Below are positions 31,384 to 53,903 of a DNA stretch of 64,000 nt, one piece after another. The stretch lies in contig NC_088323.1 in the NCBI RefSeq assembly GCF_910592395.1, positions 7,442,001 to 7,506,000 on the forward strand, written 5' to 3'. Under the pieces are notes generated by a model. It worked only from the letters and a program-made list of their open reading frames with translations, did no database searches and was not told the origin of the DNA. A program made the position numbers and the translations under genes. Source of the DNA: Lineus longissimus. Its lineage: Eukaryota > Nemertea > Pilidiophora > Heteronemertea > Lineidae. Each line of letters begins with the position of its first letter. Within the stretch, counting starts at the first letter, position 1.

Positions 31384-31450
31384 ATGGCTATTATCGACAA
31401 TGTAGTGATCTACACGTTATTGTTTTCATGGATTTCAAGGCCATTATTAG
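31384..31450 (+). CDS. Exon 1: signal peptide
   Basis: The ATG at 31384 opens 22 codons plus one base ending at AG|GTAAGT. The peptide begins MAIIDNVV and has the hydrophobic core VVIYTLLFSWI, typical of a signal sequence. It ends in phase 1, and joining to the phase-1 acceptor at 35551 restores an Ala codon before the first lectin cysteine. The intron of about 4.1 kb is filled with transposons. The assignment rests on frame, hydrophobicity and a strong donor; no other candidate first exon was found nearer, but a different one is possible. Confidence 0.5.
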
Positions 31451-31484
31451 GTAAGTTATATACAATGCTATAATATTATAATAT

Positions 31485-32028
31485 AGGAAGTGACTATTTG
31501 GCAAGCCCGGCTCACCAAACAGCACCTTTTTTCTGCCCTAGATGGAGAGCCGAACTCATGCATATTCAACCATCCAGGAGCTCATTATCATTCGTGGCAA
31601 CACGGTCAGCAACACTGGAGTTACAGTGAAACGCCTTTAGAAATGCACACTAATGCATTTAACATGCTTATCAGTTAAATCACGTTTATGACTTTTTTTG
31701 TAAATCCATACAGTCATGTACATGTACATGCTTCTTCATGGATTATTGACCAAAACCCGAGTTTAGTAACAGAAATTGAATCGAGAGCGGGAAGTCGGCC
31801 ATTGTTAAATATGCGCATATAAATTCGAATATGACGTCACTGCTCTCTGATTGGCCAACATGTTGTAACCTCTCCGGCTCGCCAAAGAGGGTAGTATTTT
31901 TGCCCTGTTTGGCAAGCCCGGCTTGCCGAACAGGGTGGCTTTTTGGTGCTGTTTGGCGAGCGGCTCTCCAAACAGGACAAAAAAAGATGCCTGTTCGGCG
32001 AGCGGCTTGCCAAATAGACCCGGCCTAT
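31485..32028. mobile_element. Inverted-repeat element in intron 1
   Basis: The left end (TATAGG..CTATTTGGCAAGCC, then CACCAAACAGCACC) and the right end (complement: TATAGG..CTATTTGGCAAGCC, then CCAAACAGCACC) are inverted copies over about 80 bases. The right part also repeats GGCAAGCCCGGCTTGCC palindromes. It begins 35 bases after the donor of exon 1. The target duplication is obscured by surrounding TATA-rich sequence. Confidence 0.65.
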
Positions 32029-32036
32029 AATATATA

Positions 32037-32212
32037 CAATTGAACCTCCCTTAGCGGACTCCTTTCTATGAAGACTAGACACTTGTTTGGTTCTTTTAAT
32101 TTGTTATCTCGATTTAATTTGACCTCTCTAATCAAAACACCTCCCTATTAAAGACATCACTCGTCAGTCCCGAGAGTGTCTTTAATCATGTTAATAGAGG
32201 GAGGTTTTCCTG
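32037..32212. mobile_element. Short pogo/Tigger-like MITE, copy 1
   Basis: A 176-base element with ends CAATTGAACCTCCC and GAGGGAGGTTTTCCTG flanked by TA dinucleotides. The interior repeats CTCCCTATTAA. Termini of the CAGT.GAACCTCC type and TA target sites are characteristic of pogo/Tigger-like Tc1-mariner elements. Confidence 0.7.
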
Positions 32213-32541
32213 TACCTGGTGCAAAAAAGCACATACTTGATCGTTTAAACTTGGCCCATCTCTGAACTGTTTCATTTGCAAAGAAAACAAAAACAAACGA
32301 ACAAACGAACAAACACAACGCGCAGGAGTGAAAAGAGTTGAACCCAACGGATGTGAAAGCGTTTTCGGAAGGTTCTGATAAAGCGTTCGTCTACTGTTAC
32401 GTAGCTAATAGTTAAAATGTACTACACGATGTACAGACGAGGCTGTGTTTAATTCAGCAGCCTCCGAACGTTACTCTTCTGTGTAAGGTAGCCAGAGACT
32501 ACAAAGAACTGCTTTTGTCAATTCATCAATGTAACTTAGTA

Positions 32542-32690
32542 CAGTTTACCTCTCTATTAAGGACACCCTCCGGACTGACAAATGATGTCTTTAATAGGGA
32601 GGTGTCCTGATAAGAGAGGTCAACTTGAAAGGAAACATCCAATTTGGGACCAAAACGAGTGTCCTTAAGAGAGAGGCTGGCCTTAAATCA
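32542..32690. mobile_element. Pogo/Tigger-like MITE, copy 2 (degraded right end)
   Basis: It begins TA|CAGTTTACCTCTCTATTAAG and contains TGTCTTTAATAGGGAGGTGT and TCCTTAAGAGAGAGG. The right terminus is eroded. Confidence 0.6.
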
Positions 32691-33065
32691 ACCGATACAA
32701 TAATTATTTCATGGAACAAAAATACATACAGACTACAATAAATACAATAAAACAGTATTTACATCTTCGGTAATGGTGACCTGATACAAATTCATTGTTG
32801 CGTAATCAAGGCGACGGGTCACCTGGCCATGAAAGCGAGATTGGCAATACCAATAAAGGACATTAATTCACAAGTTTGTGTCAAGAAATTTCATTGGCCA
32901 TCTACTTATGATGGCGCGTCTGACAAATTTCCCGCTGGATCGGATCGGCGGTGAAGACGCAGACTTCAGGATTGTCGCAAACCGCCGATAAATGGAAATG
33001 GAAATCGCGTAATATAGCAGTCATCGTCAAATTTCGGAAGAGTTTTGATTTTCGATGTTATGATA

Positions 33066-33070
33066 ACGAC

Positions 33071-33112: not shown

Positions 33113-33115
<3 letters not shown>

Positions 33116-35174: not shown

Positions 35175-35505
35175 CAGACATCTCAACTGTTCCTTTAAGA
35201 TTTTCCTGATTTATCCGACAAATGTCCGATATTATCCAATTTTTTTCCTGAAAGGTCAGACTTCTAGAAAATACTAGGGGTTCCCAAGACAGGGCATCAC
35301 AGATCGAAGGCTTTTTTTTGACCCCATTATCCCCGTTCATCTTTATTGCCCTATTTTGGGAATCCCTAGTATTTTTCACAGTTTAAAAAAAACCACGCCC
35401 TTCAGGGAAAAGTCGAACGATGTCAGACTTTTGTCGAATAAATTTGGAACAAGTTAGGGAAACCGTTAAGAAGTCGGAAAAATCCTCCTGCTAGTGCACA
35501 GTCGG
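35175..35505. mobile_element. Inverted-repeat family F1 copy just upstream of lectin exon A
   Basis: Both halves are present: TTTTCCTGATTTATCCGACA...CCTGAAAGGTCAGACTTCTAG on the left, and CCCTATTTTGGGAATCCCTA...GGAAACCGTTAAGAAGTCGG on the right. Its right half begins the 5.7-kb block duplicated at 41.42 kb. Confidence 0.75.
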
Positions 35506-35550
35506 AATTAAAAGTTTGCCTCATATTTGCCCACATGTGTTTGTTTTTAG

Positions 35551-35746
35551 CTGCAACTACTTGCCCTTCCGATACTTCAACCTACGTTGTTGGTGGCGCC
35601 AAGCGGTGTTTTCACGTCAGCAATATGAAAGGAAATTTCAACGACTACAAAAAGAAATGTACTGATAAAGGCGGAACGACACTGACAGTTGATTCTAAGG
35701 GTGTGGCAGACTTCTTCAAGAATAGCTTCAGCCAGAGTAAATTAAA
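35551..35746 (+). CDS. Exon: CTLD-A1, N-terminal half
   Basis: A TTTGTTTTTAG acceptor and a GTAGGT donor bound 196 bases, entering in phase 1 and leaving in phase 2. The peptide has TTCPSDTSTYVVGG, RCFHVSN and KKCTDKGGTTLTVDS. These correspond to the extra N-terminal Cys pair of long-form C-type lectin domains plus the first conserved Cys and the second-helix region. It joins to 36795 to complete the fold. Confidence 0.85.
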
Positions 35747-35798
35747 GTAGGTTTTTGCTTTGTCCTGTCATAATTTCCTTAACAAAATATAACATGTT

Positions 35799-35960
35799 GG
35801 AAGCGCAGTGGCACGGTGAGAGAGTGTCTTACTAGCGATCGGAAGGTCATTGGTTCGAGGCTTGGTAAGTTGTATTTGGTACTTTGAACCTGGCTGAAAT
35901 GGCAAGATTGATTCTTGGTCTCTGCAAAAAGAAGCCCGGAGAAGACTAGGGAATGCATAC
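35799..35960 (+). mobile_element. tRNA-derived SINE in the CTLD-A1 intron
   Basis: The head reads GAAGCGCAGTGGCACGGTG (A-box region) and GGTTCGAGGCT (B box, 35852-35862), at tRNA-like spacing. In the duplicated block only GGAAGCGCAGTGGC of its start survives at about 41899, next to a deletion junction. The 3' limit is approximate. Confidence 0.65.
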
Positions 35961-36794
35961 AAAGCGATTTGTCCTAAAAACGTTATTTTTCAGTGAAATT
36001 TTAAAATCAAAAAGCTTCACCGATATTTCAAGACATAACATTTATTTGCATGCCAACTGTATAGTTCCCAAAAGCATCGCAGCAGGACAATTTCAAGATA
36101 CTAGTACACACACTGAACGACTAATCCCAAAGGCTATCAGGCAATCTCGATATCATCGACCCCTATGAAACACAATTCGTGGGAGTCGGGAGGCCTAAGC
36201 TAGCAATGGCAAATACATGTACATGCAATGATGATGCTCATAACTTCATCAGTCCGCCAGTTGCTATTAATGTTATGGCTCAAAGGGGCTTTCTCGTGGC
36301 ATCATTCAATTTCTAAATGCTGGTTGAGTGATTCTCAAGGGTGATCGTTACTCTACAGAAATAACGAATTGAAAAACCATGTGCTAGTCATAAATTTTCG
36401 ATTCCTCCTTTTCTCCTATGACATCATGGCGTATATCAGCACATCTTGGACAAAGAAAACGTTCACTGCGCGGTACTTCAATCAATACAAAATCGCGAAT
36501 CATTTTATAATTAATACTGGACGGCTCCTGATAAAACAAAAGCTAGTTCGATATTAATTAAGTGCTGACAATATTATTCAAGTTGGTAATATGCATTGAC
36601 GGCCAAGCATCCTCACACAGGTCATTAGCGTCTAATAATTCAATCAAATTTAGTCGGTTATATGCTCTAAAAACTTTGACGATGGTGATGTATTTCGCCG
36701 GAGTTTGAATTTGCATTAGCCCTAGAGTTTTGAAAAGTTACATAGGAAATATAACGTGGTTTTCTTTCTCATTAAGTGACATTTCATCTTACAG

Positions 36795-36988
36795 TGACTA
36801 TTGGATAGGATTGGAGATGACTACGGGCTTTACCTGGACTGCTACTAATGAGGCGGTGAAGGAAGATCTCTGGAAAAAAAACAAAGACGGATCAGAGTGC
36901 GTGTTTTTAAAGCACGACAAATGGGAGTCAACAGGATGCTCGAATAACGGAGTGCACTATTATGTTTGCGAGAAAAGTACAACTGCAG
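36795..36988 (+). CDS. Exon: CTLD-A1, C-terminal half
   Basis: A CATCTTACAG acceptor (phase 2) and a GCAG|GTTTGT donor (phase 1) bound 194 bases. The peptide starts DYWIGLEMTTG, the canonical WIGL of C-type lectins. It continues WTATNEAV, ECVFLKHDKW, STGCSNNG and YYVCEKS, giving the conserved cysteines and the C-terminal YxCE. Neither EPN/QPD nor WND is present, so classical calcium-dependent sugar binding is not expected. Confidence 0.9.
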
Positions 36989-37119
36989 GTTTGTATAGCG
37001 TTTAATTCGCATTTGATGATGCGTTCATGAATATATTGTTATATAGCAATGAGATTTTTTGGAAATGCCGAAATCCAAATGCCAAAAGGCCTATTTTTGG
37101 AAAATATCCCCTGCTTGAA

Positions 37120-37258
37120 CATGAATAGGGCCTATTTTGGGAAGCCTTAGTATTTTTCACAGGTTTTCTAGAAATCCGACCTTTCAGGAAAAGACGGTCT
37201 TTTGTCGGATAAATCAGGGTAGGTTGGAGCAACTGTTAAGAAGCGGGAAAAGCCTGAT
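37120..37258 (+). mobile_element. Inverted-repeat family F1, right-half fragment
   Basis: GGGCCTATTTTGGGAAGCC, TTTCTAGAAATCCGACCTTT, TGTCGGATAAATCAGG and ACTGTTAAGAAGCGG occur in family order. The matching position at 42.27 kb in the other block lacks it. Confidence 0.7.
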
Positions 37259-37753
37259 AGTAGTTCTAGTTTTATATACTATGAATACTGTCTTTGCATC
37301 TCGCCACATACTTTTCAAAGCTTTTTAAGTTTAATTATTATACAGATACATTTGATGCAAGAAGGAGTGAAAGCGATCGTGTATTAGGGCAGGGTGTAGT
37401 ACGAAATTGTCCAGCAAAACACTTGTTTCTTCACTTTTAATTTTGGGGTCTGACAAAGTTTCAAGGTTAGAGGTTTTCAAATCAGTGAAATACTTTGATC
37501 ATTGGAGCCGTTTGATTGTTCTTGGCGTCTTAATCGGTTTTCTTTATGGATATGTTTGTATGCAGCCTGGCGCATTTTAATTGATACATGTATCACACCA
37601 ATTATGCCAGATTTCATATGAATAAAGATTCCACGAATGTAAAAATTTCATCGAAATTCATACACATGTAGAAGTAAGCCGTAGCCTGCAGAGTAGAAAA
37701 CGTCAAAATGAATGCAGTACGGCAATGTACAAGAATGCAGCAAAAGATTATAT

Positions 37754-38662
37754 GAGGGGTTCAGGCGCAAAACCCAGTAAGTCCACAATACCCCTATTGT
37801 TTTAAAACAAGAATTTTTGTTTGGGAGTAGGTTCATTGGTTACTGGTTTACTCTCATTGTATTCAAATAGTGTTTTGGTTGGTAAACAAAAGGCCAGAAT
37901 TTCAAAAATTAACCTTTATTATGAAAACTAGTTATTAAGCAATTTTGATTGATATTGGTGGCAAAACTCTGTAAGTCCAAATGCGTTATTTTTGCAAAAT
38001 TCAGTAAGTCCAAAAAATCTGTGTTTGCAAAACCTATCACTGGAAAAATATGCATGAAAATGTAACAGAACACAACACAGTTAGCAATGTACTCAAATTG
38101 GATTAATAAAAGAGCAAATTCCTGTCTGTGAATAGTTTTGAATGTTAGTATTTTTTGCCAGGAGTCTATAGACCAGAAACTACCGACTGTCCGTCACTTG
38201 GGAGGCCAAGCCATCCTGCTGTGATAAGTGAATGAAATCAGTACTGGGTACCTCAGAAAATTTCTGCACAATTTAATTCAATGCCTCCCATAAAGCCAAA
38301 CTTTTAAAATCCAATTTATTCATCTTAATTTTGCGTAAATTCAGCAGAAATTGACAAAAAAACACTATTCTACAGCGAAAGCCTTGCGAACGGGGGCGCC
38401 GCCATTTTGTGCGTCATGTGACATGCAGTTCATCAGTGATTGGCTTTCAGGGACTTACGTGTTTCTGCACCAATATGGTGGTGGCGTTTACTGGGTTTTG
38501 CAAACAAACTGGGTTTAAGGTAGGCATTTACGATGGGACTTACGGGATTTTGCAACAATATGATTTGACTTACGTCATCTACATGCCAAAAGCTGTACAT
38601 TGGCACAGCTATCTCATTTTTCATAGGAATGGCGTTTACGGGGTTTTGCGCCTGAACCCCTC
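37754..38662. mobile_element. 909-bp TIR element upstream of CTLD-B1; empty site preserved in block 2
   Basis: The ends are GAGGGGTTCAGGCGCAAAAC and its inverse (GTTTTGCGCCTGAACCCCTC), flanked by ATAT at 37750-37753 and 38663-38666. The duplicated block at about 42773-42781 reads ATTATATGTGTATTTC with no insert, so ATAT is the target duplication. The interior repeats AAGTCCA and CTTACG words and has no transposase. Confidence 0.85.
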
Positions 38663-38678
38663 ATATGTGTATTTCTAG

Positions 38679-38832
38679 GTTGCAGTGGTGCCACCGTTGA
38701 TGGGAATTGTTATGAAGTCTCAGGAAAGATAAACAATATAGATCGAGCAACAGCCGACAGTGCTTGTAAAGCTTCAGGAGGTCATCTGGCACGGATCGAC
38801 ACGGATGCAAAGGCGAAGTTAAAAATCTTCGA
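38679..38832 (+). CDS. Exon: CTLD-B1, N-terminal half
   Basis: A GTATTTCTAG acceptor (phase 1) and a GTAAGT donor (phase 2) bound 154 bases. The peptide has CSGATVDGNCYEVSG, ATADSACKASGGHLARIDTD and KLKIF. The NCY and GGHLA motifs are standard for C-type lectin domains. Confidence 0.88.
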
Positions 38833-39422
38833 GTAAGTTTCTAAACTATAAACCTGGTTGTTAAGCTCACGTTTTTTGTCTTTAAGGCTGCCTGTAACTT
38901 AACAAGGTGCTACACAATGTATGAGTTCATAAACTAAGAGGAGGTTGTTCCAATTTATAAACGGTTTCTCTAACTTTTCCCTGATTTCTCCGACAGTGTT
39001 CGACAAGTCGAACACTGTCGGTACAGAGCAGAAAATGTCCGAATTCAATGCTCTACGTCATTGTACACAAATGCACACAAAAAAGTTATTTTGTTGTCGT
39101 GGTTACTAAAATGAAGTGTCGTGTTTGGTTTTGAGCTGAAGACCAATAAAAACCAAATTTCAAAGCAAAACAATCATTAGTTCACCCTCCGAAAATCTAA
39201 GTTTAGTGCGTACGTACTTTATGGACGGTCCCTATTTAAAATTCTACCAAGAAATTTCGCGCCATGACGGGATGTCGTAACATTGAAAGCTTGTGTGACG
39301 TAGCCAACGGACACCACCTGTAGAAACATTCTCTCTTCTGGTTGCTGTTATCATACCGAGGGTCGTTGTTTTTCCGTAATTTTGTATCAAACCCGAGTAT
39401 TGATCATACAGGTTTTTTTCAG

Positions 39423-39634
39423 CAACGCTCATAAGTATTGGATAGGAATGAGGAAAATCAGCGGCACTGCCACTTGGCACTGGACGGCGACAGGCAATAC
39501 ATTGTCATACGAGAACTGGAAAGATGCCCCTTCTGATGATCAAAAGAAGTGCGCCTTTGCGAAACGAGGCGATAACGATGCATGGTTTTCTGAGTCTTGC
39601 ACGGCGGAGTACATTTTCGTATGTGAAATAAAAG
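39423..39634 (+). CDS. Exon: CTLD-B1, C-terminal half
   Basis: A GTTTTTTTCAG acceptor (phase 2) and an AAAAG|GTATGT donor (phase 1) bound 212 bases. The peptide has YWIGMRKISG, WHWTATGNTLSYENWKDAP, KKCAFAKRGDNDAWF and SCTAEYIFVCE, a complete C-type lectin second half. The site usually holding EPN/QPD reads APSDDQ, and WND is replaced by DAW. Confidence 0.9.
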
Positions 39635-39925
39635 GTATGTGAGTCATAATGGTATAACATGTGGTCATTGGAAGTTAGAAATATCAATGTTTTCATTAAC
39701 TGATCTGAATGTTCAAATTTACCCTGTTTGTTTTCGGAACTAAGACTAATATTATTCACTGGTTAGGGGCTGTAGCAAAATTAAAGTGAAGCAAATAAAA
39801 ACGAAAAACTTTCGTTTTGGGCGGGAGGGGGTCATATATAACATATTAAGATAAATTTAGTTCACTCAATAGAGTCGGGCTTTATTATCTTTTTACACCA
39901 TTGCATCTCAACACCATTTTAACAG

Positions 39926-40099
39926 CAACAGTTGCGCAGGCGCCGGACAAACCATCCATCGCGGACGCAAATAATGCAATTGTCACCAGGGCGTCGGTCA
40001 ATACAGGAGCGGTGTTTACGTTCACGTGTAAGAAGGGAGCCAGCGGATTAGAGCCGGATGCCTTGGAATGGTACAAAGACAACAGCAAACTTACCTCAG
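39926..40099 (+). CDS. Exon: Ig1, N-terminal half
   Basis: An ATTTTAACAG acceptor and a CTCAG|GTTAGC donor bound 174 bases, phase 1 to phase 1. The peptide has APDKPSIAD, GAVFTFTCKKGASG and PDALEWYKDNSKLTSG: the B-strand Cys and the C-strand Trp of an Ig fold. The second Cys is in the exon at 40515. Relative to its duplicate at 45171 it has two extra codons (Gln-Ala at the APDKP start). Confidence 0.85.
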
Positions 40100-40514
40100 G
40101 TTAGCAATTACCGAATAAATATACTTCAAGATTTTCAATTAGATGACCTCAGAGTTTGCAAAAAGTTGGTCTAGCTTTTCGCTCCAACCGAGCGGTTTTG
40201 GGGAAACAACCAATACCTACAGGTCGGTATCAATTCCTTAAAACAAACACGTAACGGAGCGCTGGGAAAGCTTACCTTGAAGCTTCAGGTTCGCCTGTCA
40301 CGTGACAGATACGTATAAGAACAGGCCTGTAGCGTCTTGACCGACTTCACCTCAAATAGATCTCGAAAATATAAAGTCGTGACTGAGATGATGTGTTGGC
40401 AATGTGCGACACTCTGCAAGATACTGTTACTCAGCGACCTCTAACAGATTATGCGGAGGCTTTGCTTATTGTATTCACTTTTATAGCAATGAAACTCTGT
40501 GTTGTGTCTTGCAG

Positions 40515-40646
40515 GTGTGTCGGGTGCCAAGTTTCAGAAGACGGCATCGTCAAGTGATGACGGGTCCTACACGTGCAAGGCTTTGAAAAATGGAATAGAA
40601 AGCTCGGCTTCTGATACGCTAGTATTATCGGTAAACATGGTAAACG
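40515..40646 (+). CDS. Exon: Ig1, C-terminal half
   Basis: A TGTCTTGCAG acceptor and an AACG|GTAAGT donor bound 132 bases, phase 1 to phase 1. The peptide has VSGAKFQKTASSSDDGSYTC then KALKNGIESS and LVLSV. The DxGSYxC motif is the F strand of an Ig domain. The intron falls in the same place in Ig2; the other Ig exons in this gene lack it. Confidence 0.85.
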
Positions 40647-40712
40647 GTAAGTATTACACAGACACTGACAATTTGAAATGGAAGTTTCTCGAAATAATGG
40701 CCTAGCTTGCAG

Positions 40713-40802
40713 AAGCTGGTGATACTGGATCTTATACCTGCAAGGCTATAAAGAGTGGGTTAGAAAGCTTATCGCCAGATACAATAGCATTAACAGTTAA
40801 CG
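40713..40802 (+). pseudogene. Half Ig exon (C-terminal strands only), block 1
   Basis: 90 bases after CTAGCTTGCAG and before AACG|GTAGGA are open and phase 1 to phase 1. They encode AGDTGSYTCKAIKSGLESLS then DTIALTV, matching the second half of the tandem Ig units. The part with the first Cys and Trp is missing. It could be a relic or a frame-neutral optional exon. The preceding intron would be only 66 bases. Confidence 0.5.
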
Positions 40803-41084
40803 GTAGGAGTGACCTGATACAAGTCGTACTTGACAAATTATCTGAATTTGTGTTGGTTGTTTTAAAACAGAGCGATCGAAGATTTAAAACTTCAATCAAA
40901 TTGCTTTAATTTTGCATGTACATCTTCAGTTATTTGTTCCTAATCAAGTACGACCTGAGAACTACTGCATGATGGAATACTGTGGATTGGGATAAAAATC
41001 CAGGTCCTACTGAAATGAAGAACAAAGTACTAATACATTCTGAGCTGTCGATATGTCTATATGGTTTTACAGGGCCAACTTACT

Positions 41085-41252
41085 GTTATACGGAACAGTG
41101 TGTGGATTCAGAGAGTGTCAGGAAGTCACTGTCCACTATGGTTACTACATGTGCCAGAAGAGGACAACAACAAATTTGAAAACTCAGGCGATTTAACGGC
41201 GAATAATTCCTATTCTATGACACTCGACGTGGATTTCTTGGTAGATAAGTCA
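41085..41252 (+). mobile_element. Truncated arm of the foldback family
   Basis: GTGTGGATTCAGAGAGTGTC, CACTGTCCACTATGGTTAC, GAATAATTCCTATTCTATG and CACTCGACGTGGATTTC match the start of the 29.8-kb element. It is cut off where F1 sequence begins. Confidence 0.7.
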
Positions 41253-41615
41253 AATTTTTTCCTGAATGGTTAGGTTTCTAGAAATATACTGGGTGTTCCC
41301 AAAAGAGTGCATTAAAGATCAAAGGCCAATGTTGAATGGGGTTAACCAATGTGTTAGCTAAATACTCAGAGCGACTTTTTTGAGTGAGCTAATTCGTATT
41401 TACGTTTACGGTCAAACCTCGTTATCTCCATTCATCTTTATTGCCCTATTTTGGGAATCCCTAGTATTTTTTCACAAGTTTTAAAATAAAATCCGACCTT
41501 TCAGGGAAAAAGCGGACGATGTCAGACTTTTGTCGGATAAATTTGGAAAAAGTTAGGGAAAACGTTAAGAAGTCGGAAAAATCCTCCTGCTGGTGCACAG
41601 TCGGAATTTAAAGTT
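41253..41615. mobile_element. Inverted-repeat family F1 copy upstream of CTLD-A2
   Basis: The left half (TTTTTTCCTGAATGGTTAGG) and right half (CCCTATTTTGGGAATCCCTA to GTTAAGAAGTCGGAAAAATC) are present. The right half is the duplicate of that at 35.33-35.50 kb. Confidence 0.75.
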
Positions 41616-41649
41616 TGCCTCACATTTGCCCACACTTGTTTGATTTTAG

Positions 41650-41845
41650 CTGCAACTACTTGCCCTTCCGATACTTCAACCTACGTTGTTGGTGGCGCCA
41701 AGCGGTGTTTTCACGTCAGCAATATGAAAGGAAATTTCAACGCCTACAAAAAGAAATGTACTGATAAAGGCGGAACGACACTGACGGTTGATTCTAACGG
41801 TGTGGCAGACTTCCTCAAGAATAGCTTCAGCCAGAGTAAATTAAG
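41650..41845 (+). CDS. Exon: CTLD-A2, N-terminal half
   Basis: 196 bases with the same boundaries and phases as 35551-35746 (acceptor TTGATTTTAG, donor GTAGGC). The protein differs from A1 at few positions (for example NAYKKK for NDYKKK and DFLKN for DFFKN). The reading frame is intact, so the duplicate appears functional. Confidence 0.85.
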
Positions 41846-41950
41846 GTAGGCTGTTGATTCGTTCTGTCATAATTTCCTAAAGTCATATAACACGTGGGAA
41901 GCGCAGTGGCTGTGGTTGTTTTTCTCATTAAGTGACATTTCATCTTACAG

Positions 41951-42144
41951 TGACTATTGGATAGGATTGGAGATGACTACGGGCTATACCTGGACTACTA
42001 CTAATGAGGCAGTGAAGGAAGATCTCTGGAAAAAAAACAAAGACGGATCAGAGTGCGTGTTTTTAAAGCACGACAAATGGGAGTCGACAGGATGCTCGAA
42101 TAATGGAGTGCACTATTATGTTTGCGAGAAAAGTACAACTGCAG
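41951..42144 (+). CDS. Exon: CTLD-A2, C-terminal half
   Basis: 194 bases, near-identical to 36795-36988, with DYWIGLEMTTGYTW and YYVCEKS. The intron before it is 105 bases, against 1048 in the first block, because about 0.94 kb has been lost. Confidence 0.88.
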
Positions 42145-42792
42145 GTTTGTAAGCGTTTAATTCGCATTTGTTGATGCGTTCATGAATATATGGTTATACA
42201 GTAATGGGCTTTTTGGGAAATACCGAAATCCAAATGCCAAAAGGACTATTTTTGCAAAAATCTCCACTGCTTGAACATGAAGTGAGGAAAAACCCGGTAG
42301 AAGTTATAGTTTCACATACTATGAATACTTTCTTTGCATCTCGCCACATACTTTTCAAAGCTTTTTAAGTTTAAAAATTATACAGATACATCTGATGCAA
42401 GAAGGAGTGAAAGCGATCGTGTATTAGGGCATGCAGGGTGTAGTACAAAAGCGTCCAGCAAAAGACTTCATTCTTCATTTCTAATTTTGGGGTCTGACAA
42501 AGTTTCAAGGTTAGGGGTTTTCAAATCAGCGAAATACTTTGATCATTGGAGCCGTTTGAATGTTCTTGGAGTCTTAAGAGCGTCGATCTTCTTAATGGAT
42601 ATGTTTGTATGAAGCCTGGCGCGTTTCAAGTGATACATGTATCACACCAAATTTGCCAGATTTCATATGAATAAAAATCAAAATTCATATACGTGTAGAA
42701 GTAAGCCGTAGCCTGCAGAGTGGAAAACGTCAAAATGAATGCACTACGGCAATGTACAAGAATACATCTAAAAATTATATGTGTATTTCTAG

Positions 42793-42946
42793 GTTGCAGT
42801 GGTGCCACCGTTGATGGGAATTGTTATGAAGTCTCAGGAAAGAAAAACAATATAGACCGAGCAACAGCCGACAGTGCTTGTAAAGCTTCAGGAGGTCATC
42901 TGGCACGGATCGACACGGATGCAAAGGCGAAGCTCAAAATCTTCGA
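42793..42946 (+). CDS. Exon: CTLD-B2, N-terminal half
   Basis: 154 bases, duplicate of 38679-38832, with identical splice sites and only a Lys/Ile difference in the peptide that I could see (SGKKNN versus SGKINN). Confidence 0.88.
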
Positions 42947-43054
42947 GTAAGTTTCTAAACTATAAATCTGGCTGTTAAGCTCACGTTTTGTTTTTTCTTT
43001 CAGGCTGGCGGTAACTTAACAAGGTGTTAGACAATGTATGAGTTCATTCACTAG

Positions 43055-43400
43055 TTGGAGGTTTTTCCGAGTTATAAACGGTTTCTCTAACTTTTCCCTG
43101 ATTTCTCCGGCAGTGTCCGACTTTGTCGAAAAGGTCGGATTTCTAGAAAACCTAGAGTCTGACAATGTCGGAGAAATGTCGGATAAATTAGGAAATATTA
43201 AAGAAACCGTTAATAAGTCGGAAAAAGCATCTGAGACTCAACGCCATAAACTCCCAGAGTGTCCGACTTTTCTCCAACCTTGTCAAAAATGCCGAATTTC
43301 TAGAAAACCTAGTGTCTGACAATGTCGGAGAAATGTCGGATAAATCAGGAAATATTAAAGAAACCGTTAATAAGCCGGAAAAAGCCTCTCACTAGTAATG
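43055..43400. mobile_element. Inverted-repeat family F1, rearranged copy
   Basis: ACGGTTTCTCTAACTTTTCC, TGTCGGAGAAATGTCGGATA and AAAGAAACCGTTAATAAG recur; the block from TTTCTAGAAAACCTAG to GTTAATAAG is tandemly doubled. The related position in block 1 (38.94-39.02 kb) holds only a short fragment. Confidence 0.65.
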
Positions 43401-44242
43401 AGACTCAATGCCAAAGATTACAATATAGAATTACAAATTTCGTGAAACCTGTATCATTAATTACACTGTAAAACAGTGCATTGGCAACGACCTAATAAAT
43501 TTCTTTTGAGCTGCTACAAACCTCGAAAAAGTGGAAAAATGGTGGAAATTAAAGGGTTTTCAAAATTTTAAATTCAATATCACAGTGAAACTGGATTAAA
43601 TGCTATGGTCAGATTTCTTTAAATTTTTTATTTGTTCCTTGCCTCAAAATCAAACAGGATTCTAGAGGTTCAGCAATCTCAAGGGAGAAATAAAAAAATT
43701 CTTCAGGGAAGTCCTATGGCTGTTTGGGTGACCCCTGGATAGGCCAAATTTTATTTCTGGATAATTATTATTCATTCTTGGCACATGAGTAGATGGACAC
43801 ATAACCTGAACATTTTATCCAGATTAGTCGAGAATTAAAAAGTACAGAGTAGAAGATGTCCGAATTCAATGCACTACGTCATTGTACACAAATGCACACA
43901 AAAACGTTATTTCGTTACCGTGGTTACTAAAATGAAGTGTCCTGTTTGGTTTTGAGGTTAAGTCCAATAAAAACCAAATTTCAAAGTAAAACAATCATTA
44001 GTTTACCCTCCGAAAATCCAAGTTTAGTGCGTACGTACTTTATGGACGGTCCCTATTTAAAATTCTACCGAGAAATTTCGCGCCATGACGGGATGTCGTA
44101 ACATTGAAAGCTTGTGTGACGTAGCCAACGGACACCACCTGTAGAAACATTCTCTCTTCTGGTTGCTGTTATCATACCGAGGGTCGTTGTTTTCTCGTAA
44201 TTTTGTATCAAACCCGAGTATTGATCATACAGGTTTTTTCAG

Positions 44243-44454
44243 CAACGCTCATAAGTATTGGATAGGAATGAGGAAAATCAGCGGCACGGCCAACTGGCAC
44301 TGGACGGCGACAGGCAATACATTATCATACGAGAACTGGAAAGATGCCCCCTCTGATGCTCAAAAGAAGTGCGCCTTTGCGAAACGAGGCGATAACGATG
44401 CATGGTTTCCTGAGTCTTGCACGGCGGAGTACGTTTTTGTATGTGAAATGAAAG
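44243..44454 (+). CDS. Exon: CTLD-B2, C-terminal half
   Basis: 212 bases, duplicate of 39423-39634 with intact frame. YWIGMRKISG, NWHWTATGN and SCTAEYVFVCEMK are present. Differences include NWHW for TWHW, SDAQ for SDDQ and WFPES for WFSES. Confidence 0.88.
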
Positions 44455-45170
44455 GTATGCGAGTCATAATGGTCTAACATGTGGTCGTTGGAACCAAGAA
44501 ATAAATGTATCAATGTTTTCATTGACTGATCTGAATGTTCAAACTAACCCCGTTTAGGTTACCTATTCTGTATTCCAGCATAACATAAAATCCATCACCC
44601 TCGTTCCGGGTACCATCCGGAACTAAGACAAATATCACTCACTGATTAGTAGGAGGCACTTAATTGAAATTTAAACCTACGTGTCGGGTCGATGTTGAAA
44701 TGCCGAACCTTCTTTGCGTTGCTGGAATTCCTCCAAAGCCTTCACCTACGGCTTGGAACTTTTACTACATTTTTGGACCAAGCTGCCGGCGGGGTGAAGG
44801 GATATCTCAACCTCGACTCTCCGCCCCTGGTTCAGTTCCTCAAAGTGTAAAATGCGCAATCGACCCCTTTTTTTCGAGTGGGAATATATGATTTCTGTTG
44901 ATTTTGATATTATTTTGTTTGCTTAATAATAATGCAAGTTCCGGCATGCAGTTCAATCTCACCCGAGCTTTCTCCACACAGACCCTGTCTCAAAATATAT
45001 TTGTAAGCCGACACAAAAAACCTCCAAAATATCAATTTGCTACAAATCGTATCAGTTTTCCTGGATTGTCACAAGACCAGATATTTCAAACTAATATAAA
45101 TTTAGTTCACTTGATAGAGTCAGGATTTATAAATTTTTTACACCGTTGCATCTCAACACCATTTTAACAG

Positions 45171-45338
45171 CATCAGTTGCTCCGGACAAGCCATCCATCG
45201 CGGACACAAATGATGCGATTGTCACCAGGGCGTCGGTCAATACAGGAGCGGTGTTTACGTTCACGTGTAAGAAGGGAGCGAGTGGATTAGAACCGGATGC
45301 CTTGGAATGGTACAAAGACAACAGCAAACTTACGTCAG
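45171..45338 (+). CDS. Exon: Ig2, N-terminal half
   Basis: 168 bases, duplicate of 39926-40099 without its two extra codons. It has APDKPSIADTNDAIV, FTFTCKKGASG and LEWYKDNSKLTSG. Acceptor ATTTTAACAG, donor GTCAG|GTCAGT, phase 1 to phase 1. A 716-base intron before it carries an unrecognised insertion (about 44.56-45.10 kb) absent from block 1. Confidence 0.85.
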
Positions 45339-45624
45339 GTCAGTTATAATACCGAATATTTCAAGATTCTCAATTAGATGACCTCAGAATTTGCGAAAAT
45401 ATTGCAAAACATGCCGAAACGAACAATTTATGTAATTGTTTTCTAGGTGACCATAGTGGATTTTCTTTGGTTCTCGGATCCGTGTTTGGGAATAGTACGT
45501 AACGATCCGGTTATTTTATCGGTCCACGCAATTTGTTATATCATACTCTGGGGAAAGTCACGAAAGCATGTGTTTTAAGGTGAAATAATGTAACTGGGCG
45601 AAAATAATGTATGCAAAATTTGCC

Positions 45625-45785
45625 TTTGATCTTTAATGCCCTATTTTGGAAACCTTTAAGTTTTCTCAGGTTTTCTAGAAATCCGACCTTTCTCGGAAAA
45701 GTCGGAAAATATCGGCCTTTTGTCGGATAAATCAGGAAAAATTGAGAAACCGTTAAGAACTCGGAAAAAGCCTCCTTTACTAGTG
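45625..45785 (+). mobile_element. Inverted-repeat family F1, right-half fragment inside the Ig2 intron
   Basis: CTTTGATCTTTAATGCCCTA, TTTTCTAGAAATCCGACCTT, TTGTCGGATAAATCAGG and AACCGTTAAGAACTCGG. The Ig1 intron in block 1 lacks it. Confidence 0.75.
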
Positions 45786-45872
45786 TTTCTTCGCGCGACC
45801 TCTTACAGATTATGCGGATGGTTTGCATAGTGTATTTATTCATAACAATGGAACTCTTGCTGTGTCATGCAG

Positions 45873-45995
45873 GTGTGTCGGGTGCCAAGTTTCAGAAGGC
45901 GGCATCGTCAAGTGATGATGGGTCTTACACGTGCAAGGCATCGAAAAATGGAATAGAAAGTTCGGCTTCTGATACGCTAGTGTTATCGGTAAACA
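45873..45995 (+). CDS. Exon: Ig2, C-terminal half
   Basis: 123 bases, duplicate of 40515-40646 but three codons shorter at the end because the donor is AACA|GTAAGT. It has VSGAKFQKAASSSDDGSYTC and a phase-1 exit. Confidence 0.85.
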
Positions 45996-46338
45996 GTAAG
46001 TATTACATAGACGCTGACAATTTGAAATGGAAGTTTCCCGAAAGTTATGTTCAGTTTTCAACTTTCATGTTTCTTGATGGATTGACGAATAATTCGATTT
46101 TATTTGTGGACTCCAAACAGAAGAATATCGACACGATCAATAAGTGTTAACAATATAAGTAATCCTACGGTTAACTTGAAGGCCCTGCACCTGCCAACGC
46201 ATGGCATGCAGCGCAGGATACGCCCCCGCCGCCAGCGAACGTCCCACGTGTGTTATGACTAAACACTGCTGAGAGATGAAGCACACGTCTCATAACCACT
46301 GGAGTCACTGCATGGAGCTACTTTTACAAAGCTTGCAG

Positions 46339-46428
46339 AAGCTGGCGATACTGGATCTTATAACTGCAAGGCTATTAAGAGTGGGTTAGAAAGCTTATCC
46401 TCAGATGCACTAGCATTAAGAGTAAACA
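46339..46428 (+). pseudogene. Half Ig exon (C-terminal strands only), block 2
   Basis: 90 bases after GCTTGCAG and before AACA|GTAAGT, phase 1 to phase 1, encoding AGDTGSY-type sequence (AGDTGSYNCKAIKSGLESLS). Homology to the array unit extends upstream to about 46287 (CGTCTCATAACCACTGGAGT), after which unrelated sequence begins. It has the same length and phase as the half exon at 40713-40802. Confidence 0.5.
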
Positions 46429-46522
46429 GTAAGTGTGTCCTGAGAAGTTGTGCTAGACAAATTATCTGAATTTGTTTTGGTTGTTTTAAAACAGTGGAAG
46501 ATTTAAAAACTCAATCAAATTA

Positions 46523-47326
46523 CAGTAGAACCTCCCTCAGCGGACACCTCTGCCAGGCGGACACCTCTACATTACGGACACGTCCGGCCAGTCCCGATTT
46601 TTTCTAAGTCATTTCCAATAACAAAAACCTCTGTACGGCGGACACCTCTCTATTCCGAATTGCGGACAGGGCGATAGCCAATTTTTGGTCCAATTCCCTC
46701 CCAATTACGGACAGTAGGCAAAAACAATGGTTTCCCGCGTGCGCTTGGAGAGTCAAGTAGGCCCGACAGGTGTGATATTTGCGTAATTAATCAACGTAAT
46801 TACCCCATGGCATTGTGTTTTGTATCCTAATTAAGCCGTGGCATTTGTTTACTCATCTTTTCAACTAATCACATAGGCCTATTGCATGTATTGTGTCAAC
46901 GGACACTCATAAATCCACGCGGTTTTGTCAGTGTTGCGGCGAATATGCGTTAGTAGAGAAATAAGAAAAAATTAATTATTAATCAAAGGTGCTGATGGAC
47001 AGAAATTATGGTGTTTTTTCACACATTATGACATTTCGAGGAGATTTTGCAATACAAGGGGCACCTTTTACTAGAGAGATTATTCACGCTCTGAGTTCCA
47101 AAGTAGCTCACGTCATTCAACGCAACATCACAAGCAAATACCGATCAGCCAACAGGTTTAAAGTTTCTACGCTAGATGTCGACACAGAGAAAACCAAGAC
47201 CTGCAAGGCGGGAACTTCAAATCCACCTCTCGTACGATTTGGCATAACCTCTCTAGGGCGGACACCTCTCTATTGCGGACACCTTGGCCCAGTCCCATGG
47301 GTGTCCGCAATAGAGAGGTTGTACTG
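46523..47326. mobile_element. 804-bp pogo/Tigger-like element; empty site preserved in sister units
   Basis: The termini are CAGTAGAACCTCCCTCAGCG and TGCGG..CAATAGAGAGGTTGTACTG, flanked by TA (46521-46522 and 47327-47328). The other array units read ATCAAATTACTTTAATTTTG at this point, with one TA and no insert. That establishes the insertion and its TA duplication. The 121-codon open frame inside has no transposase motif, so it looks non-autonomous. Confidence 0.9.
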
Positions 47327-47663: not shown

Positions 47664-47945
47664 CCGCTCCTATCAAGCCAATTATAATGGAAGGTGGAAC
47701 CGCAAAGACAGATCTCACAGTTAACAGCGGCGCCTCTTTCACACTGACATGCACCAAGGGCACTGGCGGATCAATCCCTGATGCGTGGAAATGGTATAAC
47801 GGCAAACGTCTCATAACCACTGGAGTTACTGGAGCTACTTTTACAAAGCTTGCAGAAACTGGTGATACTGGATCTTATACCTGCAAGGCTATTAAGAGTG
47901 GGTTAGAAAGCTCATCCTCAGATGCACTAGCATTAACTATTAACA
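47664..47945 (+). CDS. Exon: Ig3 (array unit 1)
   Basis: A TCTCTATTGCAG acceptor and an AACA|GTAAGT donor bound 282 bases, phase 1 to phase 1. It is a complete Ig domain in one exon: SFTLTCTKGTGG (Cys), DAWKWYNGKR (Trp) and TGDTGSYTCKAIKSG (Tyr-x-Cys). This unit has ESSSS where the others have ESLSS. Confidence 0.9.
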
Positions 47946-48372
47946 GTAAGTGTGTCCTGAGAAGATGTGCGAGACAAATTATCTGAATTTGTTTTGGTTG
48001 TTTTAAAACAGTGGAAGTTTAAAACTCAATCAAATTTCATTTATTTTACATTTGCATCCTTAATTATTTGTTTCGTTCAAGTAAAAACTGAGTACTACTG
48101 CATGTACCGAATGCTGTGGATTGGGATAACAATCCAGGTACTATAGAAATAAAAAAGACAGCTTGTGTCCGCCTTCTGCGCAATCAACCGGTGATGGTCA
48201 GGATGTGCCCTTTCTTAGATTCTCGGGTTACCAGCTGCAAGATTCCTACATTGCAATAACAAAACGTGCAGAGCAAGCTGTAGTGATATTGGAGCCGCGT
48301 GGACTAGGATTGGGTAAAAACACAATCCCCGGCACCAAGCTGAGATTGAAAACATGATCATTTCTATTGCAG

Positions 48373-48654
48373 CCGCTCCTATCAAGCCAATTATAATGGA
48401 AGGTGGAACCGCAAAGACAGATCTCACAGTTAACAGCGGCGCCTCTTTCACACTGACATGCACCAAGGGCACTGGCGGATCAATCCCTGATGCGTGGAAA
48501 TGGTATAACGGCAAACGTCTCATAACCACTGGAGTTACTGGAGCTACTTTTACAAAGCTTGCAGAAACTGGTGATACTGGATCTTATACCTGCAAGGCTA
48601 TTAAGAGTGGGTTAGAAAGCTTATCCTCAGATGCACTAGCATTAACTATTAACA
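48373..48654 (+). CDS. Exon: Ig4 (array unit 2)
   Basis: 282 bases with the same splice sites and phase. The protein is identical to unit 5 over the exon as far as I can read. Confidence 0.9.
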
Positions 48655-49070
48655 GTAAGTGTGTCCTGAGAAGTTGTGCGAGACAAATTATCTGAATTTG
48701 TTTTGGTTGTTTTAAAAGAGTGGAAGATTTAAAACTCAATCAAATTTCATTTATTTTGCATTTGCATCCTTAATTATTTGTTTCGTTCAAGTAAAAACTG
48801 AGTACTACTGCATGTACCGAATGCTGTGGATTGGGATAAAAATCCAGGTACTATAGAAATAAAAAAGACAGCTTGTGTCCGCCTTCTGCGCAATCAACCG
48901 GTGATGGTCAGGATGTGCCCTTTCTAAGATTCTCGGGTTACCAGCTGCAAGATTCCTACATTGCAATAACAAAACGTGCAGAGCAAGCTGTAGTGATATT
49001 GGAGCCATTGGGTAAAAAAACAATCCCCGGCACCAAGCTGAGATTGAAAACATGATCATTTCTATTGCAG

Positions 49071-49352
49071 CCGCTCCTATCAAGCCAATTATAATGGAAG
49101 GTGGAACTGCAAAGACAGATCTCACAGTTAAAAGCGGCGCCTCTTTCACACTGACATGCACCAAGGGCACTGGCGGATCAATCCCTGATGCGTGGAAATG
49201 GTATAACGGCAAACGTTTCATAACCACTGGAGTTACTGGAGCTACTTTTACAAAGCTTGCAGAAGCTGGTGATACTGGATCTTATACCTGCAAGGCTATT
49301 AAGAGTGGGTTAGAAAGCTTATCCTCAGATGCACTAGCATTAACTATTAACA
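49071..49352 (+). CDS. Exon: Ig5 (array unit 3)
   Basis: 282 bases with the same boundaries. It carries its own substitutions: TVKSG for TVNSG, KRFITT for KRLITT and AEAGD for AETGD. The framework Cys and Trp residues are kept. Confidence 0.9.
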
Positions 49353-49781
49353 GTAAGTGTGTCCTGAGAAGTTGTGCGAGACAAATTATCTGAATTTGTT
49401 TTGGTTGTTTTAAAACAGTGGAAGATTTAAAAACTCAATCAAATTACTTTAATTTTGCATTTGCATCCTTAATTATTTGTTTCTTTCAAGTAAAAACTGA
49501 GTACTACTGCATGTACCGAATGCTGTGGATTGGGATAAAAACCCAGCTACTATAGAAATAAAAAAGACAGCTTGTGTCCGCCTTCTGCGCAATCAACAGG
49601 CGATGGTCAGGATGTGCCCTTTCTTCGATTTTCGGGTTACCAGCTGCAAGATTCCTACATTGCAATAACAAAACGTGCAGAGCAAGCTGTAGTGATATTG
49701 GAGCCGCGTGGACTAGGAGTGCGTAAAAAAACAATCCCCGGCACCAAGCTGAGATTGAAAACATGATCATTTCTATTGCAG

Positions 49782-50063
49782 CCGCTCCTATCAAGCCAAT
49801 TATAATGGAAGGTGGAACCGCAAAGACAGATCTCACAGTTAACAGCGGCGCCTCTTTCACACTGACATGCACCAAGGGCACTGGCGGATCAATCCCTGAT
49901 GCGTGGAAATGGTATAACGGCAAACGTCTCATAACCACTGGAGTTACTGGAGCTACTTTTACAAAGCTTGCAGAAGCTGGTGATTCTGGATCTTATACCT
50001 GCAAGGCTATTAAGAGTGGGTTAGAAAGCTTATCCTCAGATGCACTAGCATTAACTATTAACA
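49782..50063 (+). CDS. Exon: Ig6 (array unit 4)
   Basis: 282 bases with the same boundaries. It has AEAGDSGSYTC where the other units have GDTGSYTC. Confidence 0.9.
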
Positions 50064-50490
50064 GTAAGTGTGTCCTGAGAAGTTGTGCGAGACAAATTAT
50101 TTGAATTTGTTTTGGTTGTTTTAAAACAGTGGAAGTTTAAAACTCAATCAAATTTCATTTATTTTGCATTTGCATCCTTAATTATTTGTTTCGTTCAAGT
50201 AAAAACTGAGTACTACTGCATGTACCGAATGCTGTGGATTGGGATAAAAACCCAGCTACTATAGAAATAAAAAAGACAGCTTGTGTCCGCCTTCTGTGCA
50301 ATCAACAGGCGATGGTCAGGATGTGCCCTTTCTTCGATTTTCGGGTTACCAGCTGCAAGATTCCTACATTGCAATAACAAAACGGTCAGAGCAAGCTGTA
50401 GTGATATTGGAGCCGCGTGGACTAGGATTGGGTAAAAAAACAATCCCCGGCACCAAGCTGAGATTGAAAACATGATCATTTCTATTGCAG

Positions 50491-50772
50491 CCGCTCCTAT
50501 CAAGCCAATTATAATGGAAGGTGGAACCGCAAAGACAGATCTCACAGTTAACAGCGGCGCCTCTTTCACACTGACATGCACCAAGGGCACTGGCGGATCA
50601 ATCCCTGATGCGTGGAAATGGTATAACGGCAAACGTCTCATAACCACTGGAGTTACTGGAGCTACTTTTACAAAGCTTGCAGAAACTGGTGATACTGGAT
50701 CTTATACCTGCAAGGCTATTAAGAGTGGGTTAGAAAGCTTATCCTCAGATGCACTAGCATTAACTATTAACA
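50491..50772 (+). CDS. Exon: Ig7 (array unit 5)
   Basis: 282 bases with the same boundaries, matching unit 2 in protein. It is the last full unit; the next repeat is truncated in the intron. Confidence 0.9.
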
Positions 50773-51221: not shown

Positions 51222-51497
51222 TCCCTCCAAACAAACCCGTACTCTTTGAGAATGGTGTACCGAAGGCAGCCACTTCGGTTAACCAAGGGACAACCTTTGT
51301 ATTAAAGTGTGCCAAAGCACCAGGAGGGTCAATTCCCGATTCGTGGAAGTGGTACCAAGACCGGACGCTGAAGGGTGTTACGGGAAATACCTTTACAAAG
51401 ACTGCCGAACCTGGTGATACTGGTACATACAAATGCCAGGCTCTCAAAGGCGATTTGTCAAGCCCCTTGTCAGAAGCTTTAACTCTCACAGTTAACG
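51222..51497 (+). CDS. Exon: Ig8 (diverged)
   Basis: A GACTGTTTCAG acceptor and an AACG|GTAAAT donor bound 276 bases, phase 1 to phase 1. It has PPNKPVLFENG, FVLKCAKAPGG, DSWKWYQDR and PGDTGTYKCQALKGD. The Ig layout is the same as in the array but clearly older. Confidence 0.88.
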
Positions 51498-51627
51498 GTA
51501 AATTTATGCTTAATTGATTGCAATGACAAGGCCATTTGAATATGAACATTTTTGTTGCGTTGTTCTGTGATTGCTTCCTTTATCAAATAGTTACAACAAT
51601 AATGTCGTTAAACATATTATTGTTTAT

Positions 51628-52060
51628 CACCAGTAGGAGGCTTTTTCCGACTGCCTAACGGTTTCTCTAACTTTTTCCTGATTTATCCGACTAATGTCGG
51701 ATAGTGCGACTTTTTCCTCAAAGGTCGGATCTCTAAGAAACCTGCGAATAATACCAGGGCTTCCCGAAATGGGGCAGTGAGGATCAAAAGTCTATATTGA
51801 ATGGGGTTATTGAGGTGGGAGTCGATTACTCAGAGTGACCCTAAGTGGGAATACTTATAAGTTCACCCAATTAGGTCACTTCATTAACTCCATTCAACAT
51901 AGGCCAGTGATCATAATGCCCTATTTTGGGAAGCCCTCAGTATTATTCAGGTTTTCTAGAAAACGTTATCCGACATTTTTGGGAAAGGTCGGACAATGTC
52001 GGACTTAAGTAGTTTAAAGTATGAAAAGTTAAGAAGTCGAAATAAGCCTCCTCATCAGTG
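51628..52060. mobile_element. Complete reference copy of inverted-repeat family F1
   Basis: It starts CACCAGTAGGAGGCTTTTTC and ends with the inverse form AAGCCTCCTCATCAGTG. The halves mirror each other through TTTTTCCTGATTTATCCGAC, TTCCCGAAATGGGGCA / TGCCCTATTTTGGGAA and ATTGAATGGGGTTA / TAACTCCATTCAA. About 433 bases, no coding capacity. Confidence 0.85.
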
Positions 52061-52808
52061 TATGTTGTTTAGGGTTGTTTGCAGATTCCAATCATCCCAT
52101 CCCCTTCCAAAAGAAATAACGTCGTCAAAGCTTCTATCACCAAAAGTTGATGACCGACTTGATATATAAGATAAGGTCCATATAATTTATCAAGAGGGTC
52201 TTTGTTTATTATCATTGGTCAATAACTGCATACTAGTGGGGCTTCGCTATCCCGCTCCGAGAACCAATTCACCGAGAGTGGTTCTCGCAAATTTGTCATC
52301 ATCCATGAAAACTTCAAATAAAATGGAACTCAAGCTTATTTTTGCGAGCAAATTTCATAGTTTCTCGCTGACCAGTTAATCATGACCATCAGCTCTGGCA
52401 GCGAAATACTGGTCCTTTAATTTTAGTGACACTGGAATAAACGAAACCAATCATTTTACTACGCAATTAATTCTCTGTCGGCAAAGCGCCCCACCTGCTG
52501 ATGTAATTAAGAACATTTGATAATTAACTGCTAACAACGCTGAAGTCTGACATTGCATTGGATTCTATTAGACACAATAGCAGAGCCAGATTAGAGGCAG
52601 TATTGTAATAGGTAACTTTTCATTCATTCTTATGGAAAAATACCGAATTTTTGCTGCACAGTATTTTAGCGAGCATGACCTATCAGCAAAAGGCGCGAGA
52701 ATTCGTGAAATGTTGCGGTTCTACGGTAATCAACAGAGAATATCATAATATGCTAACGGGGGCAAAATAGGATCAGCATAATACATGACTTGTTATGTTA
52801 TTTTGCAG
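52061..52808. other. Intron between Ig8 and Ig9, unique sequence
   Basis: No exon or repeat recognised. Confidence 0.4.
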
Positions 52809-53096
52809 TGGCTCCGGACAAACCGTTAATCGATGACACTGACGGTATCATCGACACTTCCAGTAACACAGCAACAGTTAGCCTAGGAAGAAAGTTTTCT
52901 TTCTCCTGTAAAAAGGCACAAAGTGGGGAGACTCCAGACGGCTGGGAATGGTACAAAGATGGCATTAAGTTTACTGCTGGGGTCTCAGGCGCTGTGTTCA
53001 GCACGGCAGCCGCTTCAGATGAAAATGGGTCTTATCAGTGCAAGGCCATGAAAAATGGTTTAGGCAGTACCTTTTCTAGCGCTGTTACGTTAAAAG
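52809..53096 (+). CDS. Exon: Ig9 (diverged)
   Basis: A GTTATTTTGCAG acceptor and an AAAAG|GTAAGT donor bound 288 bases, phase 1 to phase 1. It has APDKPLIDD, FSFSCKKAQSG, DGWEWYKDGIKFTAG and DENGSYQCKAMKNG. It is closest in wording to Ig1 and Ig2 but without their internal intron. Confidence 0.88.
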
Positions 53097-53637
53097 GTAA
53101 GTAGCAATTGATTTTTACCACGGTCCCTTATAAGATTCAATATAGGTTAATTTCCCCGTGGTAATATAGATTATGACATAGTAAATCTTTTAAGACGATA
53201 GTCCAAAGTTGAAAAATATGGATATGATTCTTATAGGAATGCTTAAGTTAAGAATGTGTTTTTCTATTTCGTATGCATTTTTAGGTACAATCTTTACAAG
53301 ATTATCATTAGATTCTTATTCAACCTCTTAATAAACTTAGAATCTTACAAGAATCTTTGAAGAATATGTACAGTCCTACCAGAAAGTAAATGTCAACCGT
53401 TTTTAAAAAACATTGACTATACAGTGTAGTCTTGTCCACTATAGGACACCTGATGTGAGTTGATTTCATTGTAATTGCATGACCCTTGGCCAACTCGAGC
53501 TCAAACATGAAGGATAAGGGGTCTTTAACAAAGGTCCATGGAAGAGATTGAAATTATAACATAAAAATGTCTTAACGTGTCATCCCTGTTAAAAGTCAGT
53601 AATATTATTATCATGAGAAAAACCTCTCTATTTTCAG

Positions 53638-53903
53638 TCCAATGTAAAATCGATATTTACGGTCGACAATACGACAGACTAAAAGACAAAAAGCTTGCAG
53701 GCAGCAGTGTTACAAGGATTTACCTTAACTCCCGGAGTGTACTTCACTGTGTCACATCGTGTTTGATTCTACATCAATGTGACTGCACGGCTGTGGAATA
53801 CAATGTCAGCAACAAAGCCTGCACAATGGTCAAAGCTGCAGCCTACTCGGCGATACAGTCTCAAACGAAAGCGCCAGGAGTCGATCTCCTTATACTGAAA
53901 TGA
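53638..53903 (+). CDS. Terminal exon: cysteine-rich PAN/apple-like module and stop
   Basis: A CTCTATTTTCAG acceptor (phase 1) leads into 88 codons ending TGA at 53901-53903. Six cysteines lie in VQCKIDIYG, LHCVTSC, HQCDCTAVEYN and KACTM. The spacing S..C...C......C.A..YN.....C resembles PAN/apple modules, which mediate protein or sugar contacts. No transmembrane or GPI signal follows. The PAN call is by pattern only. Confidence 0.65.

Follow-up and report, generated by a model that had tools for sequence, protein, structure and literature searches.

A predicted mosaic gene of C-type lectin-like and immunoglobulin domains, apparently enlarged by tandem duplication, in the nemertean Lineus longissimus

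Whether a long run of lectin-like and immunoglobulin exons belongs to a single gene, how such a gene grew and what its product might do are questions raised by a locus of the nemertean Lineus longissimus, found at positions 31384..53903 (forward strand) of a 64,000-nucleotide window (the whole stretch of DNA analysed; NCBI RefSeq assembly GCF_910592395.1, contig NC_088323.1, positions 7,442,001 to 7,506,000). The analysis indicates that the locus is probably one animal gene for a secreted (or otherwise extracellular) mosaic protein with a signal peptide, two successive units of C-type lectin-like domain (CTLD) type A, CTLD type B and immunoglobulin (Ig) domain, seven further Ig domains and a PAN-like end. 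Its domains are of ordinary types; what is unusual is their order and the recent growth of the gene.

When the 21 exons were located by their flanks and spliced in a script, they gave 4416 nt, or 1472 codons, with no frameshift across the series and the terminal codon as the only stop; AG was found at all 20 acceptors and GT at all 20 donors. These results bear out the exon and codon counts of a first-pass annotation. The model consists of a 67-nt start and signal exon, a four-exon CTLD-A/CTLD-B pair plus a two-exon Ig domain present twice (units a and b), seven Ig domains of one exon each and a terminal exon. All junctions between modules in the spliced model lie in phase 1, as do those inside Ig1 and Ig2, whereas the junction between exons 1 and 2 of each CTLD lies in phase 2; the earlier statement that every exon is in phase 1 thus holds for the modules but not within the CTLDs. 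Similarly, the proposal that skipping any cassette leaves the frame intact applies to the single-exon Ig domains and to whole CTLD modules but not to single CTLD exons, since their lengths (196, 194, 154 and 212 nt) are such that the loss of any one shifts the frame. Skipping one half of Ig1 or Ig2 would keep the frame but break the fold.

The predicted protein has 1471 residues, two N-glycosylation sequons and 48 cysteines, corresponding to six in each of four CTLDs, two in each of nine Ig domains and six more. Seven pieces of the protein were scanned against Pfam, with the unit-a CTLDs together in one scan and the unit-b CTLDs singly. Matches above the cutoff were obtained to Lectin_C for all four CTLDs, to Ig_2 for all four of the scanned Ig domains (Ig1, Ig3, Ig8 and Ig9, of nine; Ig2 and Ig4-7, outside the scan, are near-copies of scanned ones) and to PAN_1 for the terminal exon (25.0 bits against a cutoff of 21.4). 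Together with the exon model, these profiles recover the two CTLD types, nine Ig domains and PAN-like tail in the order originally proposed. Of 11 short ATG exons with a phase-1 GTRAG donor on the forward strand of the whole window, only the start exon encodes a hydrophobic core, which agrees with the earlier suggestion of an upstream signal-peptide exon ending in phase 1, and no such exon with a hydrophobic core was found on the reverse strand of the whole window. By chance, Markov-resampled regions of 5.55 kb contain an average of 0.13 signal-type exons, with 9 of 100 regions holding at least one. No membrane-spanning segment was seen, as beyond residue 40 there is no 19-residue stretch with a mean hydrophobicity above 1.30.

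Among solved structures, CTLD-A is nearest to CD69 and natural killer (NK)-type receptors (17 sequences at E values up to 0.001, best 6.5e-11), and CTLD-B to receptors with multiple CTLDs, of the mannose receptor type (48 sequences). EPN or QPD plus WND are the canonical sugar/calcium motifs of C-type lectin domains; none of EPN, QPD and WND occurs anywhere in the 1471 residues, and canonical calcium-dependent sugar binding is therefore not predicted. The predicted CTLD fold stands by profile, and the missing motifs lower the claim of classical sugar binding rather than that of the fold. The best matches of Ig8 are Fc receptor-like protein 5 and an immunoglobulin-like domain protein (6 sequences); the latter is also a top match of Ig3, along with tail proteins, and these are followed by JAM and neuronal Ig proteins (24 sequences). 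It is a separate observation that, for the array Ig domain (47664-50772), a tail protein and the immunoglobulin-like domain protein outscore animal Ig proteins among solved structures.

Both duplicated units have been under purifying selection since their duplication. With CTLD-A, CTLD-B and both Ig halves taken together, units a and b show a synonymous divergence of 0.111 (24.5 differences at 220.3 sites) and a nonsynonymous divergence of 0.025 (20.5 differences at 814.7 sites), giving a nonsynonymous to synonymous ratio (pN/pS) of 0.23 (binomial p 5e-7). In the gap-free exons, pN/pS is 0.25 in the true frame compared to 1.10 and 1.08 in the other two, with 8, 7 and 24 differences at codon positions 1, 2 and 3, respectively (1029 sites). 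The low ratio and its dependence on frame indicate that both units have been retained as protein since copying. Distances between the units range from 0.026 to 0.060 in exons (6 segments) and from 0.045 to 0.141 in introns (10 segments). Evidence of constraint is weaker in the Ig array than in the units, with 6 of 282 exon columns variable compared to 23 of 415 intron columns (Fisher p 0.032).

Judging from the arrangement of these copies, the gene appears to have been enlarged by an intragenic tandem duplication of roughly 5-6 kb and by a younger array of Ig exon-intron copies of ~709 bp. Unit a extends from ~35321 to 41016 and unit b from ~41416 to 46523, with a piecewise alignment identity of 86-97%; the start-to-start spacing between them changes from 6099 to about 4100 and then to about 5600 because of insertions. 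At the seams, the last part of each unit is a 3' fragment of an Ig-array exon followed by the start of its intron, and these two Ig relics are the only extra significant matches in a translated search of the window with all exons. The younger array (47327 to about 51141) is composed of units of 698-711 bp with about 97% identity and contains five complete near-identical Ig copies, whose exons differ at 0-5 of 282 positions and whose introns carry private changes. An 804-bp transposon-like insert in the first intron of the array interrupts an otherwise continuous series formed by the relic at 46281 and the array, and the uninterrupted version of the insert site is found in the sister intron at 49436. 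The ends of this insert resemble repeats near 32122 and 33588. In the simplest history, an ancestral gene with the order signal peptide, CTLD-A, CTLD-B, Ig, a number of further Ig domains and PAN would have undergone an unequal crossover involving the intron before CTLD-A and an Ig-array intron, resulting in two lectin-Ig units that each end in an Ig relic. The Ig exon and its intron would later have multiplied to five complete copies through recent expansion and homogenisation.

Several points weigh against the reading of the locus as one gene under coding constraint. Splicing and the joint transcription of both units are predicted only, and the signal peptide was judged solely by its hydrophobic core (and phase-1 donor). 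A sequence comparison of the PAN exon with solved chains gave no match at E values up to 1, and an AlphaFold model of this exon alone, made without an alignment, was poor, with a pLDDT of 44.6. In addition, the 3' part of the intron between the two exons of CTLD-B (0.045) is conserved to exon level, and constraint on the array is weak because five of its six variable exon columns alter the amino acid. Finally, poly(A)-like sites number 41 inside the locus against an expected 38.1, and two of them (41311 and 41485) lie between the units, as does a TATAAA at 40747. These motifs, and the fact that the two units are tandem copies, would fit two or more tandem genes in which unit a is transcribed apart from unit b and the array. 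However, no signal-peptide-like GTRAG exon was identified between the units (40646-41650), and the translated search of the window found no second PAN exon (best stray match E 0.93, which is insignificant) and no further CTLD copies of note. A single signal-peptide-like exon together with a single PAN exon favours one transcription unit without proving it, and splice phases are continuous through the units, making separate genes unlikely. TATA-like (51 TATAWA on the forward strand of the window) and poly(A)-like motifs are about as frequent as chance and are therefore uninformative either way on gene boundaries; for this reason, no weight was given to a TATA-like box at 31242 and an AATAAA at 54398 as the boundaries of the gene.

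It is also possible in principle that the two units, the five Ig copies or both are false tandem copies introduced during assembly, either from haplotypes or from repeat mis-assembly, and the near-identical array units are of the type whose copy number assemblies misjudge. Nevertheless, such an artefact is quite improbable given that about 11% of synonymous sites differ between units a and b, that the constraint on them is frame-specific, that large insertions set the units apart and that the array copies have intron changes of their own. Decay of the gene, with part of the locus no longer coding, would be consistent with the transposon-like insert and the pair of truncated Ig relics found inside the locus, but it is very improbable in view of 21 exons without a stop or frameshift and of the purifying selection that followed duplication in both units.

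In the protein encoded by a single gene, the CTLDs at one end would bind a target. Both the lack of sugar motifs and the relatedness of CTLD-A to NK-type domains make protein-type contacts a more likely mode of binding than canonical calcium-dependent sugar binding. The Ig array would serve as a long stalk and a second binding surface, the PAN-like end would bind or join other proteins, and the whole molecule would thereby link its target to a cell or to the matrix. A recognition or opsonin-like role is a plausible though uncertain assignment, an adhesion or matrix role is possible, and a role of any other kind is rather unlikely. An adhesion role is nearly as plausible as an immune one because CTLD-Ig adhesion proteins exist, and the protein may possibly be a structural one akin to invertebrate contactin-type CTLD and Ig proteins, not involved in immune recognition. 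Drosophila contactin-type proteins, which are adhesion proteins, have a CTLD on the N-terminal side followed by several Ig domains, fibronectin type III domains and membrane anchoring; the CTLD-first order followed by many Ig domains, the long regular Ig stalk and the missing canonical sugar-binding motif of the predicted protein would all suit such a role. In contrast, the protein described here has two CTLD types and a PAN-like end, with no fibronectin type III domain among the scanned domains and no membrane anchor seen, and fast, recent growth of repeats is seen more often in recognition genes. An immune function, which may be inferred by analogy, is plausible because PcLec3 of crayfish, a secreted-type lectin with one Ig domain and one CTLD, is reported in PMC4944128 to bind microbes and haemocytes and to affect phagocytosis; PcLec3 differs in having 252 residues and a single domain of each type.

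Compared to other lectin-Ig proteins, the predicted gene has a distinct arrangement. In PMC10875847, molluscan CREPs (grouped with FREPs as VIgL) are described as having one or two immunoglobulin superfamily domains and a C-type lectin domain at the 3' end. Here, four CTLDs are located 5', ahead of most of the nine Ig domains, and the 3' end is PAN-like, so that the order is unlike that of CREPs; of the signal peptide also expected of a CREP, a hydrophobic core and a phase-1 donor were observed. BSCLT of Botryllus is similar in that an N-terminal CTLD precedes a C-terminal Ig domain, but as described in PMC4944128 it contains one of each, and neither repeats nor PAN are mentioned in that description. 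Lancelet APEC proteins combine fucolectin, two C-type lectin domains and CUB, so that fucolectin, CUB and APEC take the place of the Ig array and PAN. Lineage-specific CTLD combinations, including those with immunoglobulins, are described as common in bivalves and other invertebrates in PMC10140915, PMC11797021 and PMC8242945. No paper listed by searches of the open-licence PMC library could be recognised by its title and abstract as describing the order reported here.

The first-pass annotation had also called the protein diversified, a description that agrees with the repeat growth in this one sequence but goes beyond it with regard to alleles, individuals and isoforms. It is conceivable, although doubtful, that the gene encodes a recognition protein that varies in the germline: unequal crossing over among the near-identical symmetric modules would leave individuals with different numbers of Ig repeats, and perhaps also of CTLD-CTLD-Ig units. 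Splicing could vary the length further, and the outcome would be lectin-like receptors of differing reach and valency with no risk of frameshift. If copy number does vary among individuals, germline diversification of a lectin-Ig protein could be tested directly at this locus, in an animal that lacks antibodies; if it is fixed, the locus still illustrates clearly how domains accrete under coding constraint. In either case, it displays in one DNA stretch how an extracellular protein can be enlarged by means of symmetric phase-1 modules, with an older 5-6 kb unit duplication bearing Ig relics at its seams side by side with a young, almost identical exon-intron array.

Table 1. Exons of the predicted gene and associated relics and insert, in window coordinates.
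Feature	Position	Strand	Evidence
Exon 1, start codon and signal-peptide-like segment, ends in phase 1	31384..31450	+	splicing, signal-exon scan
CTLD type A exon 1, unit a	35551..35746	+	splicing, Pfam
CTLD type A exon 2, unit a	36795..36988	+	splicing, Pfam
CTLD type B exon 1, unit a	38679..38832	+	splicing, Pfam
CTLD type B exon 2, unit a	39423..39634	+	splicing, Pfam
Ig1 first half exon	39926..40099	+	splicing, Pfam
Ig1 second half exon	40515..40646	+	splicing, Pfam
Relic, 3' part of Ig-array exon and following intron, 84% to array, outside exon model	40704..41016	+	window comparison, translated search
CTLD type A exon 1, unit b	41650..41845	+	splicing, Pfam, unit comparison
CTLD type A exon 2, unit b	41951..42144	+	splicing, Pfam, unit comparison
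CTLD type B exon 1, unit b	42793..42946	+	splicing, Pfam, unit comparison
CTLD type B exon 2, unit b	44243..44454	+	splicing, Pfam, unit comparison
Ig2 first half exon	45171..45338	+	splicing, unit comparison
Ig2 second half exon	45873..45995	+	splicing, unit comparison
Relic, 5'-truncated Ig-array unit, 94% to array, outside exon model	46281..46523	+	window comparison, translated search
804-bp transposon-like insert, inverted ends (TACAGTA...AACCTC), flanking TA duplication	46523..47326	listed as + (orientation not assigned)	intron comparison
Ig3 exon (array)	47664..47945	+	splicing, Pfam, array comparison
Ig4 exon (array)	48373..48654	+	splicing, array comparison
Ig5 exon (array)	49071..49352	+	splicing, array comparison
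Ig6 exon (array)	49782..50063	+	splicing, array comparison
Ig7 exon (array)	50491..50772	+	splicing, array comparison
Ig8 exon	51222..51497	+	splicing, Pfam
Ig9 exon	52809..53096	+	splicing, Pfam
Terminal exon, PAN-like domain and stop codon	53638..53903	+	splicing, Pfam

Elsewhere in the window, Rfam and tRNA scans gave no matches. Upstream, a 619-aa open frame at 21100-22959, with a rhodopsin-type 7tm_1 match of 76.2 bits after a long N-terminal part, is probably a single-exon gene for a G-protein-coupled receptor. A 319-aa open frame on the reverse strand (59235-60194) has a weak Laminin_G_3 match (19.2 bits, below the cutoff of 27.6). Two tandem repeats were also observed: a 33-bp repeat of 29 copies at 14898-15864, whose reverse strand is open as an 11-residue repeat with weak Pfam matches below cutoff, and an array with periods of 31, 61 and 121 bp at 26740-27517. 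A long imperfect inverted repeat (80%) at 29808-30731 is likely a dispersed element, with relatives at 18127-18483, 41080-41247 and 55661-55953, and one copy lies near the seam between units a and b.

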